This document shows positions 8,145 through 31,948 of a stretch of DNA of 64,000 bases, piece after piece (position 1 is the stretch's first letter; each line of letters begins with the position of its first letter). This DNA is from Pirellulales bacterium. GTDB lineage: Bacteria > Planctomycetota > Planctomycetia > Pirellulales > Thermoguttaceae. Made by a program: the position numbers and the translations under genes. The DNA is taken from NCBI GenBank assembly GCA_020846145.1, contig JADLEL010000186.1, positions 31,779 through 95,778 on the forward strand. The letters are read 5' to 3'. Under the pieces are notes generated by a model. That model saw only the letters and a program-made list of their open reading frames with translations. It was not told the DNA's origin and did no database searches.

Positions 8145-8509
8145 TCATCCGGATAAAGCGTACCCGATGATTTGGTTTACCGGGAATTTCAAGGAATGAA
8201 TCGCAAGGAGCAATGGAATTGCGCTATCGAGCGCGGATTTCCTCGATTTCGGGCCGAAGGCCCAGCCGTTCGCCCAGCCCTGGGCAACGCCCAGGGGAAC
8301 GAGGCCCCGCCGCGTTAATTCCAGGCCCAACTTTCCCGGCCGGTCTCCTTCGGGAAGGTGAACGATTGGCCCGTTGGGCCGACGCGAAAATGTTTTGCCG
8401 CGCCGTTTTCCCCAGGCGTTGCCTGGGGCTGGGCGAACTGCCGGCCCTTTGGGCCGCCGCGGCCGCGTTCCAATGGCATTAATCGGTTAGGTACGCTTTA
8501 GCCGGATGA
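8145..8509. mobile_element. MITE-like element bounded by a 20-nt inverted repeat, containing a CCCAGG(G)CGTTGCC(C)TGGG repeat pair
   Basis: TCATCCGGATAAAGCGTACC at 8145-8164 vs reverse complement TCATCCGGCTAAAGCGTACC of 8490-8509 (19/20). Confidence 0.55.
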
Positions 8510-8577: not shown

Positions 8578-9231
8578 ATGGCGCGATTGGCGCGGGTGGT
8601 GGCGGCGGGGATGCCGCATCATATAACGCAGCGGGGGAACCGGCGGCAGCCGACGTTTTTCCGCGACGAAGATTACGTCGAGTACCTGGAACTGATGGCC
8701 GAGTGGACGCACGAGTGCGACGTGGCGGTCTGGGCCTATTGCCTGATGCCCAATCACGTGCATCTGATCGCCGTGCCGAAGCGCGCGGACGGCTTGCGGC
8801 GCGCGATCGGCGAGGCGCATCGGCGCTATACGCGATACGTCAATTTCCGCGAGGGCTGGCGCGGGCATCTTTGGCAGGGACGGTTCGCGTCGTTCGTGAT
8901 GGACGAGCCGTATCTGCTGGCCGCCGCGCGGTACATCGAACTCAATCCGGTGCGGGCGGGGCTGGCCGATTCGCCGCGCGCGTACCGCTGGAGCAGCGCC
9001 CGGGCGCATTTGCGGGGCAAGGACGATCTCCTGGCGAAGGTCGAACCGCTCCTGGCGCTGGCCGAGAACTGGCGCCGCCTGTTGACGAGCGCGGCGAGCG
9101 AAGAGAAACTCAAGCTTTTCCGCGCGCACGAGACCACCGGCCGCGTGTTGGGCGACGGGGAATTTCAGAAGCGTTTGGAGAAGAAGCTCGGTCGTGTATT
9201 GCGGCGGCAAAAACCCGGCCCGAAAGGATAA
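8578..9231 (+). CDS. REP-associated tyrosine transposase (Y1_Tnp/RAYT, IS200-like)
   Basis: MARLARVVAAGMPHHITQRGNRRQPTFFRDEDYVEYLELMAEW...YCLMPNHVHLIAVP; HUH motif HVH. Confidence 0.95.
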   Translation: MARLARVVAAGMPHHITQRGNRRQPTFFRDEDYVEYLELMAEWTHECDVAVWAYCLMPNHVHLIAVPKRADGLRRAIGEAHRRYTRYVNFREGWRGHLWQGRFASFVMDEPYLLAAARYIELNPVRAGLADSPRAYRWSSARAHLRGKDDLLAKVEPLLALAENWRRLLTSAASEEKLKLFRAHETTGRVLGDGEFQKRLEKKLGRVLRRQKPGPKG

Positions 9232-26926: not shown

Positions 26927-27376
26927 ATGTCTGTGAATAGTTCAACAAACAATCCACGTCGCGGCTTTACCTTGATTGAAGTCATGTTGGTCATGGTCAT
27001 CATCGTGATCCTGGCTTCGTTCGCCGTGGTCGCGGTGGGAAGAAACCGGGCGCGATCACAGATCAATCAGGCGAAGATTCAAGTAGGCCATTTCAAAACC
27101 GCCATCGAACTATTTAACATCGACATCGGCTACTATCCCAGCACCCAGTCGGGTTTGGAGTCCCTGCGCAACTGCCCGCCCGACATCCCCAATCCGGCAA
27201 AATGGGGACCGACCCCTTACATGGATACCGAGATTCCCTTGGACCCCTGGGATCAACCCTATCAATATTGCGCGCCGGGCAGAATCAATATCGATTCCTT
27301 TGATGTTTGGTCGCTTGGAGCGGATCGCCAGGACAACACGCCCGACGACATCGGCAATTGGCCGATGCAGCAGTAA
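26927..27376 (+). CDS. gspG: Type II secretion major pseudopilin GspG
   Basis: RRGFTLIEVMLVMVIIVILASFAVVAVG; YYPSTQSGLESL; DPWDQPYQYCAPG. Confidence 0.95.
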   Translation: MSVNSSTNNPRRGFTLIEVMLVMVIIVILASFAVVAVGRNRARSQINQAKIQVGHFKTAIELFNIDIGYYPSTQSGLESLRNCPPDIPNPAKWGPTPYMDTEIPLDPWDQPYQYCAPGRINIDSFDVWSLGADRQDNTPDDIGNWPMQQ

Positions 27377-27400
27377 GCGCCTATCCCAGAACCATCTCGG

Positions 27401-27473
27401 TTGGGGTGGCAGTTGTACTGCCACCCCTTGAATCGCCGGATAGCGGGGGATGGCAGTACAACCGCCACCCCAA
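27401..27473. repeat. Palindromic repeat pair (TTGGGGTGGCAGTTGTACTGCCACCCC...GGATGGCAGTACAACCGCCACCCCAA)
   Basis: Exact palindromic arms GGGGTGGCAGT/ACTGCCACCCC; related copy at 44151-44180. Confidence 0.8.
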
Positions 27474-27508
27474 CGAATTGCGGTTTGAGGATAAGTTCTA
27501 AGATCATC

Positions 27509-28180
27509 ATGGGCGATAAATACCGAGACTCGACGCGCCGCGGCCTCACGCTGATCGAGGTGATGTTGGTACTCGCTCTCATGGTCGTGATCGCCTCGTT
27601 CTGTTGGCCCGCGCTGAGCAGGGCCTTCTCCAGCCAGCGATTGAAAAAAGCGGCCGATATCGTGTGCACGCAATGGAGCAAGGCCCGCATCAAGGCGATG
27701 AGCGAAAACTGCATCGTCCTCTTCTACTATGAAATGGACGGCGGCCGATTCCGCATCCGGCAACTTAGCGACATGGACTCCCTCGCTTTTTCCCCAGACG
27801 CGGCGGCGGCCGATTCCAACGCGGCGCTCGGCGCGGTTGCGTCCGGCAGTCCGGCGGCCGAATCCGCCGGCGGCTCGTCGGATATCATCAATTATTCGTC
27901 GCCCGACGGCGTGCAATCGTTGCCCAAGGGGATCGTGTTTCGCGCCGGCCAAATCGAAAACGACAGCCGCGCCTCGACGGCGGACGTGGGACAGGTTTCC
28001 AACCTGTCGAGCGACGTGCTGTGGTCCGCCCCCATCTTTTTCTATCCCGACGGCACTTCCTCGAGCGTTCGCCTGCAAATCTGCAACGATCGCAACTTAG
28101 GCCTCGAACTCGCGCTCCGCGGCATGACGGGCGTCGCCCGCGTCAGCGATATCGGCGCCGCGGAGGGAGCCGTGCCATGA
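27509..28180 (+). CDS. gspH: Type II secretion pseudopilin GspH-like
   Basis: RRGLTLIEVMLVLALMVVIASFCWPALSRAF; position after gspG. Confidence 0.85.
   Translation: MGDKYRDSTRRGLTLIEVMLVLALMVVIASFCWPALSRAFSSQRLKKAADIVCTQWSKARIKAMSENCIVLFYYEMDGGRFRIRQLSDMDSLAFSPDAAAADSNAALGAVASGSPAAESAGGSSDIINYSSPDGVQSLPKGIVFRAGQIENDSRASTADVGQVSNLSSDVLWSAPIFFYPDGTSSSVRLQICNDRNLGLELALRGMTGVARVSDIGAAEGAVP
27986..28012. repeat. Partial GTAGGACAGGTTTCTAACCTGTC element inside gspH
   Basis: GTGGGACAGGTTTCCAACCTGTCGAGC; translated DVGQVSNLSS; same family as 28189-28245. Confidence 0.75.
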
Positions 28181-28821
28181 AATCCACCGTAGGACAGGTT
28201 TCTAACCTGTCGAGCACAAAAAGACAGGTTAAAAACCTGTCCTACCAGCCCGGTGCCATGCCCACGCTCGTCGTGGGCATGTTGCGGGATTTGGCCCATT
28301 TTCCTCATGCCCACGACGAGCGTGGGCATGGCACCCTCTTTCGTTCGTCGGGTCGCTCTGCTTTCACGCTGCTCGAAGTGATGCTTGCGCTGGCGATTCT
28401 CGCCGCCGCGCTCGCCGTGCTGGGCGAGTTCGCGCGGATGGGCCTGCGCAGCGCGAAAGCCGCCCGCGACCTGACCCGCGCCGAACTGCTCTGCGAAAGC
28501 ATCATGAGCGAAATTACCGCGGGCATTACCCCGCCCGATCCCGTGGAAAACGCGCCCGTCGTCGATCCCGTAACAGGCTCGACCCTCGACGAAATCCAAA
28601 CCGACGACGTCGCCCCGTGGATCTATTCGATCGACGTGCAGTCCATCGACGAAGACGGTTTGCTGGCGGTAAAAGTTACCGTAGCGCAAGAACTCCCCCC
28701 CGCGCAGCGCCCCGCGAGTTTTTCCCTCGTTCGCTGGATGCCCGATCCCATGCTCGACGTGCTCTACGGTTCCGCGGAGAGCGGTTCGTCGAGCACGCAA
28801 AGCACGGGCACGACTCCTTAA
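28177..28821 (+). CDS. gspI: Type II secretion minor pseudopilin GspI-like with repeat-derived long leader
   Basis: ATGA overlap with the gspH stop; FTLLEVMLALAILAAALAVLGEF after a leader of about 59 aa. Confidence 0.85.
   Translation: MKSTVGQVSNLSSTKRQVKNLSYQPGAMPTLVVGMLRDLAHFPHAHDERGHGTLFRSSGRSAFTLLEVMLALAILAAALAVLGEFARMGLRSAKAARDLTRAELLCESIMSEITAGITPPDPVENAPVVDPVTGSTLDEIQTDDVAPWIYSIDVQSIDEDGLLAVKVTVAQELPPAQRPASFSLVRWMPDPMLDVLYGSAESGSSSTQSTGTTP
28189..28245. repeat. GTAGGACAGGTTTCTAACCTGTC palindromic element
   Basis: GTAGGACAGGTTTCTAACCTGTC...GACAGGTTAAAAACCTGTCCTAC; related sequences near 46343 and 59579. Confidence 0.8.
28252..28335. repeat. Palindromic element with perfect 30-nt arms
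   Basis: GGTGCCATGCCCACGCTCGTCGTGGGCATG...CATGCCCACGACGAGCGTGGGCATGGCACC. Confidence 0.9.
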
Positions 28822-28858
28822 ACCTGCCCTTGATGTTTGACCGAAAAAATTATTTACC

Positions 28859-30217
28859 ATGAAGATACGACTCATTCGCGTCTTGATTTGCCCCAAAGGG
28901 GCAGCCATTCTCCCAGCCCAGGGCAACGCCCTGGGGAGAGTGGCGGCTTGCAACCATTACTGGCCCAACGGGCCAACCGTTTCCGGCGAACGGCTGGCCC
29001 GTTGGGCCGTAAATTATTTTAGGGATTTCCAATCCCCAGGGCGTTGCCCTGGGCTGGGAGAACCTTCGGCCGTTGGCCGAAAATATCGAAGCCTTCCGAC
29101 GTCCAAGCGAAGTAGCGCAAACCATTCCTACCGGCGCGCCTTCACGCTCCTCGAAGTGATTCTCGCGTTGGGCCTGTCGCTGGTCCTGGTCGCCGCCATC
29201 GGCACCGCGATCGCCATGTACGTGCGGCTCTTCGATTCCGGCCGCACGAACATCGAGGAAGCGCAACTCGCCCGCTCCATTCTCCGCCGCATGGCCGACG
29301 ATCTCCGCGGCGCGGTGCTTCACAGCGAGGTGGACGTGAACCAACTCGTTTCGGCGGTTGCCGGTTCGACCTCCGGGACAAGCGCAGCTTCTTCGTCCGG
29401 TTCATCTGGTTCGTCCGCGAACAATTCCGCATCGGGCGGTTCCGCGATCGACGAATCCATGCTGGATCCTTCCGCGTTGGAAGAATCGCTCGTCGATGAA
29501 CTCACCGACCTCTCCGCCACCGGGCCGCAAAACGCCCCCGGCCTCTACGGCAATGCCTATCAACTGCAAATCGACGTCAGCCGCCTGCCCCGCATCGACG
29601 AGTACATGCTGGCCGGCGATCAAGGCGGTTCCGCCGTCGATCCGTTGACCGGCGGCCCGTCGGTCGATCGCGTGAGCGATCTCAGAAACGTCTCGTATTA
29701 TATTTTCGGCGACGCGGCCACGATCGCGATGGGCGCCTCCTCCGGGATGTCGATGGGCTTCGGGCTCATCCGCCGCGACATCGACCGCGCCGCGGCGCTT
29801 TACTCCGCGCAAAACGGAATGGAAGTCGATCTCGACGCCGCCGCCGATCCGATCGCTCCCGAAGTCGAATCGGTCCAGTTCGCTTATTACGACGGATACG
29901 ATTGGTACGATTCCTGGGACTCGACGCAAAACGGCGGCTTGCCGATGGCGGTCCAGATTACGCTGGCGATCGCCCGGCCGGCGAAAAAAAACGGCGAAAT
30001 ACCGCCTCCCGGCGTTTATTCGCTGCTGGTGAACCTCCCCCTCGCCAAACCAATCGCCTCGGCCGATATGTCCTCTTCCGGCATGGAAGAGTCCGCCGAT
30101 TCCCCGACCGGATCGCAGGAATCTCCCGCGCCAGCTCCCAATACGCCCGCGCCGACGCCCAACAACAATCCGAGTCCCTCGAATAATTCTTCCGGCCAGA
30201 AAAATCCAAAAACATAA
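28859..30217 (+). CDS. gspJ: Type II secretion minor pseudopilin GspJ-like with repeat-derived long leader
   Basis: RRAFTLLEVILALGLSLVLVAAIGTAIAMYVRLFDSGR; no in-frame ATG/GTG/TTG between the repeat and this motif. Confidence 0.85.
   Translation: MKIRLIRVLICPKGAAILPAQGNALGRVAACNHYWPNGPTVSGERLARWAVNYFRDFQSPGRCPGLGEPSAVGRKYRSLPTSKRSSANHSYRRAFTLLEVILALGLSLVLVAAIGTAIAMYVRLFDSGRTNIEEAQLARSILRRMADDLRGAVLHSEVDVNQLVSAVAGSTSGTSAASSSGSSGSSANNSASGGSAIDESMLDPSALEESLVDELTDLSATGPQNAPGLYGNAYQLQIDVSRLPRIDEYMLAGDQGGSAVDPLTGGPSVDRVSDLRNVSYYIFGDAATIAMGASSGMSMGFGLIRRDIDRAAALYSAQNGMEVDLDAAADPIAPEVESVQFAYYDGYDWYDSWDSTQNGGLPMAVQITLAIARPAKKNGEIPPPGVYSLLVNLPLAKPIASADMSSSGMEESADSPTGSQESPAPAPNTPAPTPNNNPSPSNNSSGQKNPKT
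28891..29080. repeat. CCCAGGGCGTTGCCCTGGG inverted repeat pair, in-frame with the gspJ leader
   Basis: CTCCCAGCCCAGGGCAACGCCCTGGGGA near 28909-28937 and CCCCAGGGCGTTGCCCTGGGCTGGGAG near 29035-29061, plus GGCCC-type hairpins. Confidence 0.88.
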
Positions 30218-30232
30218 TTCGCGAAGCCAGCG

Positions 30233-31948
30233 ATGATAAAGAATATCCTTCAATTATTCGTATCTTCCTTTCGCGCCGCGGAATGTTTTTCGGCCAAAGG
30301 CCGAGCGTTCTTCGGGAATAATTGGTCCGTTGGACCGAAAAGCGTTTTATGTCCACCCGTTCCCCAGGGCGTTGCCCTGGGCTGGGAGAACGGCTACCCC
30401 TTCGGGGCAAACTATCGAAACAAATCCCCGTCCCGCCGCGGCTCCGTGCTGCTCCTGGTGCTGGTGGTGATCGTCATTCTCTCGCTCGCCGGGTACACCT
30501 TTTCGGAATTGATGCTCACCGAACGCAAGGCGGCCGAACTGAGCGGGCAGAAAATCCAAGCCCAGGCCGCGGCGGAATCGGGCGCGCAATTCGCGCGCAT
30601 TTTCCTCATGAAAACCGCGGAAGACCAGACCCAACTCGGCGGCTGGTACGATAATCCGACCGTCTTTCGCGGCCTGGTCGCCGACGACGACAATCCCCGC
30701 CTCCGCGCGCGATTCACCATCGCGGCCCCCGTCGTGGATGAGCAAGGCATCGTCGTCGAAGGCCTGCGCTACGGGCTGCAGGATGAATCGTGCCGCTTGA
30801 ATCTCAACACCCTTCTGCTGGCCGACAAAGCCAAGCCCGGCAGCGCGCGGACGATCCTGCTCGGCCTGCCCGGCATGACCGAGCAGATCGCCGATTCGAT
30901 TCTCGATTGGATCGACACCGATTCCGAACCCCGCGAATTCGGCGCGGAAGCCGAATACTACGCGATTCTCTCTCCGCCCTACACCCCGAAAAACGGTCCG
31001 CTGGAAACGGTCGAGGAACTGTTGCTCGTGCAGGGCGTTACGCCCTGGCTGCTGTTCGGCTGCGACGCCAACCGCAACGGCCGCATCGATGCCGGCGAAC
31101 CCGATCCCATGAGCATCCCCGACGTCGATAATTCCGACGGCTCCATGACGCAAGGCTGGGCGGCGTATCTCACGCTCTACAGCATGGAAAAGAATCTCAA
31201 GCCCGACGGTACGCCCCGCATCAATATCAACCAAGACGACATGCAAACCCTCTATGACGAGCTATCCGAAGTGCTCACCGCGCCCGTCGTTACTTTTATC
31301 GTGGCCTATCGGCAAAACGGGCCTTATTCCGGCACTTCCAGCAACACGGCGAAACTCGCGACCGGCGAACTCGATTTGACGAAAAAAGCAAAAACGAAGT
31401 TGAAAACGATCCTCGACCTCGTCGGGGGAAAAGTGCAAGTGACTTTCAAGGGCGAGAAAAAAGCCACGATTTTGGAATCTCCCTTCCCCAACGTCCCCGG
31501 GGCGACGAGCGTTATTTTGACCAACTTGATGGATAATTGCACCGTCAATCCCGCGCCGATCATCCCCGGGCGGATCAACATCAACCAGGCGCCCCGCGTC
31601 GTGCTGGCCGGCATTCCCGGATTGACCTCCGACATGGTCGATCAGATACTTTCCACTCGCATTATGAATCCCGCCGAGGCCGACATCAGCCGCAGCTATG
31701 AGACCTGGTTAATCGACGAGGGAATCGTAACCTTAAAACAAATGAAGGATATCATTCCCTATGTAACGGGCGGGGGCAGCGTTTTTCGCGCCCAGGTCAT
31801 CGGCTATTTCGATCAGAAAGGGCCGGCCGCAAGGCTCGAAGTGGTGATCGACGCTACCGCAACGCCGCCCCGCATGGTATTCTGGAGAGATATCAGCCAT
31901 CTCGGCCGCGGTTACCCGGTCGAACTTCTCGGCACGGAAGCGGAGTAG
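30233..31948 (+). CDS. gspK: Type II secretion minor pseudopilin GspK with repeat-derived leader
   Basis: RRGSVLLLVLVVIVILSLAGYTFSELMLTERKAAELSGQ; GspK-like RLNLN and GRININQAPRVVLAGIPGL. Confidence 0.93.
   Translation: MIKNILQLFVSSFRAAECFSAKGRAFFGNNWSVGPKSVLCPPVPQGVALGWENGYPFGANYRNKSPSRRGSVLLLVLVVIVILSLAGYTFSELMLTERKAAELSGQKIQAQAAAESGAQFARIFLMKTAEDQTQLGGWYDNPTVFRGLVADDDNPRLRARFTIAAPVVDEQGIVVEGLRYGLQDESCRLNLNTLLLADKAKPGSARTILLGLPGMTEQIADSILDWIDTDSEPREFGAEAEYYAILSPPYTPKNGPLETVEELLLVQGVTPWLLFGCDANRNGRIDAGEPDPMSIPDVDNSDGSMTQGWAAYLTLYSMEKNLKPDGTPRININQDDMQTLYDELSEVLTAPVVTFIVAYRQNGPYSGTSSNTAKLATGELDLTKKAKTKLKTILDLVGGKVQVTFKGEKKATILESPFPNVPGATSVILTNLMDNCTVNPAPIIPGRININQAPRVVLAGIPGLTSDMVDQILSTRIMNPAEADISRSYETWLIDEGIVTLKQMKDIIPYVTGGGSVFRAQVIGYFDQKGPAARLEVVIDATATPPRMVFWRDISHLGRGYPVELLGTEAE
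30291..30409. repeat. CCCAGGGCGTTGCCCTGGG family element inside the gspK leader
   Basis: CGGCCAAAGGCCG...GGTCCGTTGGACC...CCCCAGGGCGTTGCCCTGGGCTGGGAGAA...CCCCTTCGGGG. Confidence 0.85.

Follow-up and report, generated by a model that had tools for sequence, protein, structure and literature searches.

The leader of the minor pseudopilin gene gspI of a Pirellulales bacterium carries two different palindromic elements in tandem, both in frame ahead of the prepilin motif. We put at about 70% the probability that this leader is a class III (prepilin) signal peptide expanded by repeats, which would settle behind stop codons and persist in leaders that are cleaved off. The observations behind this reading are the repeats themselves, their copy number and position, the open frame across them, the absence of a later ATG, GTG or TTG, their enrichment and their independent recurrence across genera. 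The gene was analysed within a window of 64,000 nt (G000:C186:31779-95778; positions below are those of the window unless a contig or locus is named). The home genome comprises 5.81 Mb in 224 contigs, is probably a MAG and, judged by gspI, has Planctomycetaceae/Pirellulaceae MAGs as its closest named relatives.

The gspGHIJK operon and its repeat elements

Five genes in the order gspG-H-I-J-K extend from 26927 to 31948. The first, gspG (26927..27376, + strand), served as a control, having a normal 12-aa leader (MSVNSSTNNPRR-G) without any repeat. Between gspG and gspH lies element E, a GTTGGGGTGGCAGTTGTACTGCCACCCC palindrome (27400..27474). The first-pass annotation had described three consecutive minor pseudopilin genes with repeat-derived leaders, a description that holds for gspI, gspJ and gspK and fails for gspH (27510..28180, +), whose ATG at 27510 sits 3′ of the repeat and opens a usual short leader (MGDKYRDSTRRG); a repeat-coded gspH leader is thereby ruled out. 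A half copy of element A (GTGGGACAGGTTTCCAACCTGTC) at 27986-28008 inside gspH is coded VGQVSNLSS, just as it reads in the leader of gspI; in alignment it falls in a variable loop and does not stand out as a clear insertion.

In the list of open reading frames gspI (28177..28821, +) begins at ATG 28177, in an ATGA overlap with the stop codon of gspH, in agreement with the first-pass annotation. A leader of 61 codons (28177-28359) is followed by AFTLLEV, and homology to relatives, found in 40 of 60 genomes, starts only at this motif. The prepilin N-terminal motif (N_methyl, PF07963; C186:60129-60200, 26.4 bits against a cut-off of 21.2), together with the position inside a gspGHIJK operon, assigns the product to the GspI-type pseudopilins. 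The leader ends in ...SGRSA^FTLLEVMLALAILAAALAV, that is, with the G/A residue and the following hydrophobic stretch with Glu5 that define class III signal peptides, which also share with it the basic residues before the cleavage residue. Peptidase_A24 has three matches in the home genome. Downstream, gspJ (28859..30217, +) has a leader of 93 codons (28859-29137) that also leads into AFTLLEV, and gspK (30233..31948, +) one of about 66 codons followed by RRGSVLLLVLVV.

Element A (28189..28245) reads GTAG-GACAGGTTTCTAACCTGTC ... GACAGGTTAAAAACCTGTC-CTAC, is read as VGQVSNLSSTKRQVKNLSY, and consists of two 23-nt arms (28189-28211 and 28223-28245) that are 96% complementary. Its core, GACAGGTTNNNAACCTGTC with at most one mismatch, occurs at 219 sites in the genome, compared with none for the reversed control pattern. 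Among 58 sampled core palindromes the GTAG tag was present on the left in 27 and on the right in 24, and 15 of 21 close pairs were arranged tail-to-tail (+,-), element A itself being such a dimer. By its tag and its inverted dimers, element A is a member of the GTAG REP superfamily. Y1_Tnp gave 12 matches in the genome, and family A was nearby in none of the 10 loci inspected.

Element B (28252..28335) is a palindrome with perfect 30-nt arms (28252-28281 and 28306-28335, 100% complementary) separated by 24 nt, and is read as GAMPTLVVGMLRDLAHFPHAHDERGHGT. It matches about 40 places in the genome (84 matches in a search that counted both strands of the palindrome), the top ones at 78-90% identity. 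The coordinates and arms thus bear out the two tandem elements reported in the first-pass annotation, and its count of at least three repeat families stands as well, with A and B in gspI and a third family, C, in gspJ and gspK. Element C occupies 28887..29063 in the gspJ leader (CCAGCCCAGGGCAACGCCCTGGGGA ... CAACGGGCC ... mirrored), and a partial copy lies at 30322..30411 in that of gspK. On contig 24, at 1081-2140 of locus L087, a Y1 tyrosine transposase gene is bracketed by composite copies of family C; identity to these two flanks is 79-92%, in pieces, for the gspJ element and 82-91% for the gspK element. This flanking position suggests that family C may be moved by that transposase. The window itself contains a gene for a Y1_Tnp transposase of the REP-associated type (8617..8940, +) with family C sequence nearby (8232-8459).

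According to the reading that we prefer, an original short leader (MKST...SGRS^AFTLLEV-like) would have been extended to 61 aa by the in-frame gain of A and B, with a like expansion in gspJ, in gspK and in all three prepilin genes of the contig 30 operon described below. REP-like elements would settle chiefly just downstream of stop codons, at least family C being probably tied to the resident Y1 tyrosine transposase, whose activity would account for transposition. In a tightly packed pilin operon the base past the stop would already belong to the leader of the next gene, so that a stop-free in-frame copy would be read by the ribosome as leader, throughout its length. Such a copy would persist because the prepilin peptidase would cut the leader off on the cytoplasmic side and leave the mature pseudopilin unaltered.

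Translation and enrichment of leader repeats

The first-pass annotation had correctly listed later in-frame starts at GTG 28273, ATG 28279, TTG 28282 and TTG 28291, overlooking ATG 28258, which also lies in element B. Since no in-frame ATG, GTG or TTG occurs between 28291 and the motif, at least the right arm of element B must be translated, as had been claimed, unless a non-standard start is used. Counted from ATG 28177 the leader has 61 residues; counted from the last start in element B it has about 20, within the range of 6-26 aa given for prepilin leaders (PMC4471445). The leaders of gspJ and gspK clearly exceed this range.

A second pilin operon is present on contig 30 of the home genome, where PilB/T/C-like genes are followed by three prepilin genes (C30a-c). 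All three have repeat leaders, made of repeats other than those of gspI-K: MNDRMKWRVESGEWRV...HSSFIIRHSSFRVHSPLSTLHSPLL-RRGFTLVE in C30a, MRYGKRQNGER...VESGEWRVESGEQGRRKGEGGRRK...HSSFIIHHSSFRPV-RRAVTLIE in C30b and MKRSKVESGEWRVEG...GIHPSYFILHPSPVHSPLS...LI-RRGVSLLE in C30c. The exception to obligate repeat coding is C30a, where a TTG directly 5′ of RRGFTLVE could provide a minimal repeat-free leader. The start of C30c overlaps the preceding stop as ATGA, like that of gspI, and 47 of 60 genomes contain a C30c orthologue.

The repeats could instead be untranslated 5′ spacers, that is, ordinary intergenic REPs, with initiation near the motif at ATT, ATC or CTG or by reinitiation, and a short leader as the outcome. 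In favour of this possibility, most control genes do have an in-frame start codon past the repeat, and the available text of Di Nocera et al. (2013, PMC3733652) holds, after comparing shorter homologues, that most 5′-terminal REPs of three species may not code for protein. However, gspI, gspJ, gspK, C30b and C30c have no ATG, GTG or TTG 3′ of the repeats and before the motif, and the upstream starts of gspI and C30c still overlap the preceding stop as ATGA. Moreover, a spacer has no need of an open frame, yet the six repeat leaders (61, 93, 66, 54, 73 and 59 codons) are all stop-free in the pilin frame, whereas length- and repeat-matched windows of the sample were open in 17, 8, 15, 20, 13 and 18% of cases, respectively, the product being about 1e-5. 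Open frames in six of six leaders favour leaders that are translated throughout; an untranslated spacer followed by an unconventional start codon is the less favoured alternative, which we regard as unlikely.

Repeat distribution was surveyed in 1.70 Mb of the 5.81-Mb home genome, in which repeats covered about 3.3% of the sequence. Coverage peaked just past stop codons, reaching 15-17% of bases at 0-120 nt downstream, and stayed below 1% within genes over most of their final 300 nt, from 300 to 30 nt before the end. We then considered 213 tight junctions (same strand, gap of -120 to +60). By automated scoring of any repeat in the 5′ part of the next gene, 6 of 8 pilin-class junctions were positive (2 of the 8 being false or DUF1559) versus 35 of 205 others (P = 8e-4), one batch of the sample having been picked for element B, which probably raised the control rate. 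Most of the 35 control junctions had an in-frame start shortly past the repeat, so that the repeat there is merely intergenic. Before curation, obligate repeat coding was scored at the 7 of 205 controls that lacked a near start (6 of 8 pilin-class junctions versus these, P = 4e-7). After curation by one reader who had seen the data, it was assigned to the 5′ ends of 5 of 6 pilin genes, a small sample drawn from two operons, versus 2 of 205 others (P = 4e-8).

By eye, the only two convincing non-pilin cases were a DNA polymerase I-like gene (L179:9135, +) and a ThiF-like gene (L194:18044, +), which have repeat-coded N-terminal stretches with no near downstream start codon.

The first-pass annotation had also suggested a positional hotspot. 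Over the 1.70 Mb of home genome and about 28 relatives, these leaders did exceed other gene starts in repeat overlap, and repeat-containing leaders were found in 6 of the 10 non-DUF1559 pilin-type genes of the home genome (gspG-K, C30a-c, C42 and C152). On the other hand, in about 42 DUF1559 prepilins of the same genome the stretch from the last possible start to the motif never held 18 or more repeat bases, and no gspG leader examined contained repeats. A hotspot at all prepilins is thus ruled out; what does exist is a hotspot confined to minor pilins that lie inside operons. This restriction points to scarce intergenic room combined with tolerance, rather than to targeting of the leader sequence, and the repeat-free DUF1559 leaders indicate that tolerance of the leader alone is insufficient. 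In gspG and the DUF1559 genes the repeats seem to stay 5′ of the start codon, and, from the few cases inspected, these genes probably have more upstream room.

Repeat-filled leaders in related genomes

Among the roughly 28 relatives surveyed, in which repeat copy number was judged by DNA searches, repeat-filled gspI leaders were present in six further genera. They contained a palindrome with 29-nt arms (GTGTGCCACTGCTTGCC...) in G015, TAGCCCGAAGCGC... with dozens of copies in G051, GAAATCCGAAATC in G006, GTAGGGTGGGACCAGCGAGC... with dozens of copies at 90-100% in G040, CCAACCTCCAACCTC in G044 and, in G027, family C at 81-100% identity to the gspJ copy of the home genome. The neighbouring minor pilin genes behaved similarly: in G036 one family with dozens of copies is common to the gspH and gspJ leaders, the gspJ leader of G044 is likewise repetitive, and the gspH and gspJ leaders of G040 have the appearance of short-period repeats. 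By a rough count with approximate totals, repeat leaders were found in 7 of 30 gspI genes versus 0 of 27 gspG genes (P = 0.008), and no gspG leader had repeats in any genome examined, the home genome included.

That repeats were mis-joined during metagenome assembly is very improbable. Repeats are classical points of misassembly, and the home genome, in 224 contigs, is probably a MAG, but the same layout appears in two operons of that genome and in other genera, including G051 with its roughly 10 contigs of up to 4 Mb, and the frame is intact on both sides of the repeat in every case.

A functional role of the hairpins themselves was also considered, by which structured leader mRNA would set subunit ratios, holding translation of the minor pilins down compared with that of the major pseudopilin gspG. 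The predicted fold of 28150-28370 is very stable (-134.3 kcal/mol, z = -12) and starts 12 nt past the gspI start, and such elements occur among the minor pilins, in H, I, J and K, and in no gspG leader. The latter fact is, however, also explained by a probably roomier spacer upstream of gspG. In addition, several leaders are short-period repeats (VESGEWR, HSSFII, GRRKGE) rather than a single hairpin, many relatives lack them and nothing is conserved across genera. We therefore hold a regulatory role of the hairpins to be improbable, somewhat more so than the untranslated spacer, and retain the expansion of a cleavable leader as the preferred reading.

Long leaders do not always consist of repeats. 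Ten long leaders from eight repeat-poor relatives each gave no more than a single weak second match in the genome of origin, which rules out that rule, and repeat-free long gspI leaders of 51 aa in G031 and 50 aa in G022 imply that repeats alone are not the cause of length. These pilins tolerate leaders of up to about 50 aa regardless, and repeats fill the leaders where they are abundant.

Relation to known coding repeats and prepilin leaders

Palindromic repeats that code for protein are already known. Rickettsia palindromic elements (RPE) appear to be the closest parallel, being, like the present elements as far as their sequences tell, dispersed palindromic repeats in frame within protein-coding genes, and N-termini carrying RPE-1 have been reported as expressed (cited in the available text of PMC3733652). 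Nevertheless, RPEs occupy many positions in many genes, whereas the coding copies described here, from many unrelated families and several genera, are concentrated in the predicted cleavable leader of a single class of genes. For the GTAG- and CGTC-tagged REPs, the same text (Di Nocera et al. 2013) reports families in Planctomycetes and Verrucomicrobia and a location mostly 3′ of ORFs. Genes for DNA repair and for RNA are the chief hosts of the intragenic copies that it describes, pilins are not named in it, and it doubts the coding status of most copies at 5′ ends. In its tag, its stem-loop and its inverted dimer arrangement, element A agrees with the GTAG-tagged REPs described there, unlike elements B and C, which carry no tag.

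Regarding the leaders, cleavage of class III signal peptides by the prepilin peptidase on the cytoplasmic side is described as established in the portion of PMC10191384 available to us, where Streptococcus sanguinis is also cited, with no length stated, for very long leaders. Compared with the 6-26 aa of class III leaders (PMC4471445), the 54-93 aa found here, mostly repeat-encoded, are about two to four times longer. Our literature search, whose coverage was thin for subscription journals, returned no paper tying palindromic repeats to pilin leaders; the pilin-leader location is the new element.

These leaders show where in-frame repeat insertion can survive, namely in a coding segment that would be discarded, and they offer natural variants for probing how long or odd a prepilin leader can become before SRP/Sec targeting and prepilin peptidase cutting fail. 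They also provide a testable rule for predicting coding REPs, a tight operon junction plus a disposable N-terminus, and a warning that automatic start calling should not cut these genes back to short leaders. Whether planctomycete prepilin leaders constitute a protected landing zone, a translated-then-destroyed “coding intergenic space” in which unrelated repeats independently become signal peptide, is in our estimation an even question. Other cleaved N-termini, such as Sec and lipoprotein signal peptides, may behave likewise.

Dispersed repeats (for example LNLQFAICNYQFAI and LSFIIHPSSFII) also encode some of the hydrophobic stretch of putative Sec or lipoprotein signal peptides, a further kind of disposable N-terminus, at L186:1786 (+) and, on the minus strand, at L119 (start 17767), L165 (start 3164) and L185 (start 6252). 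A PheS-like gene (L132, minus strand, start 14162) has an apparent repeat sequence within the protein (QLSPQQTPQQIPQQTPVGMAVALPSLAKPQAA) and not at its terminus. The commonest repeats of the genome sample were families of about 65-100 copies around AATGGGACTGTCCC and ATGGACCTGTCCCC, and several short-period repeats (CATTCATCATTC, AGGGGATAGGGGAT) were also among the most frequent of the genome.
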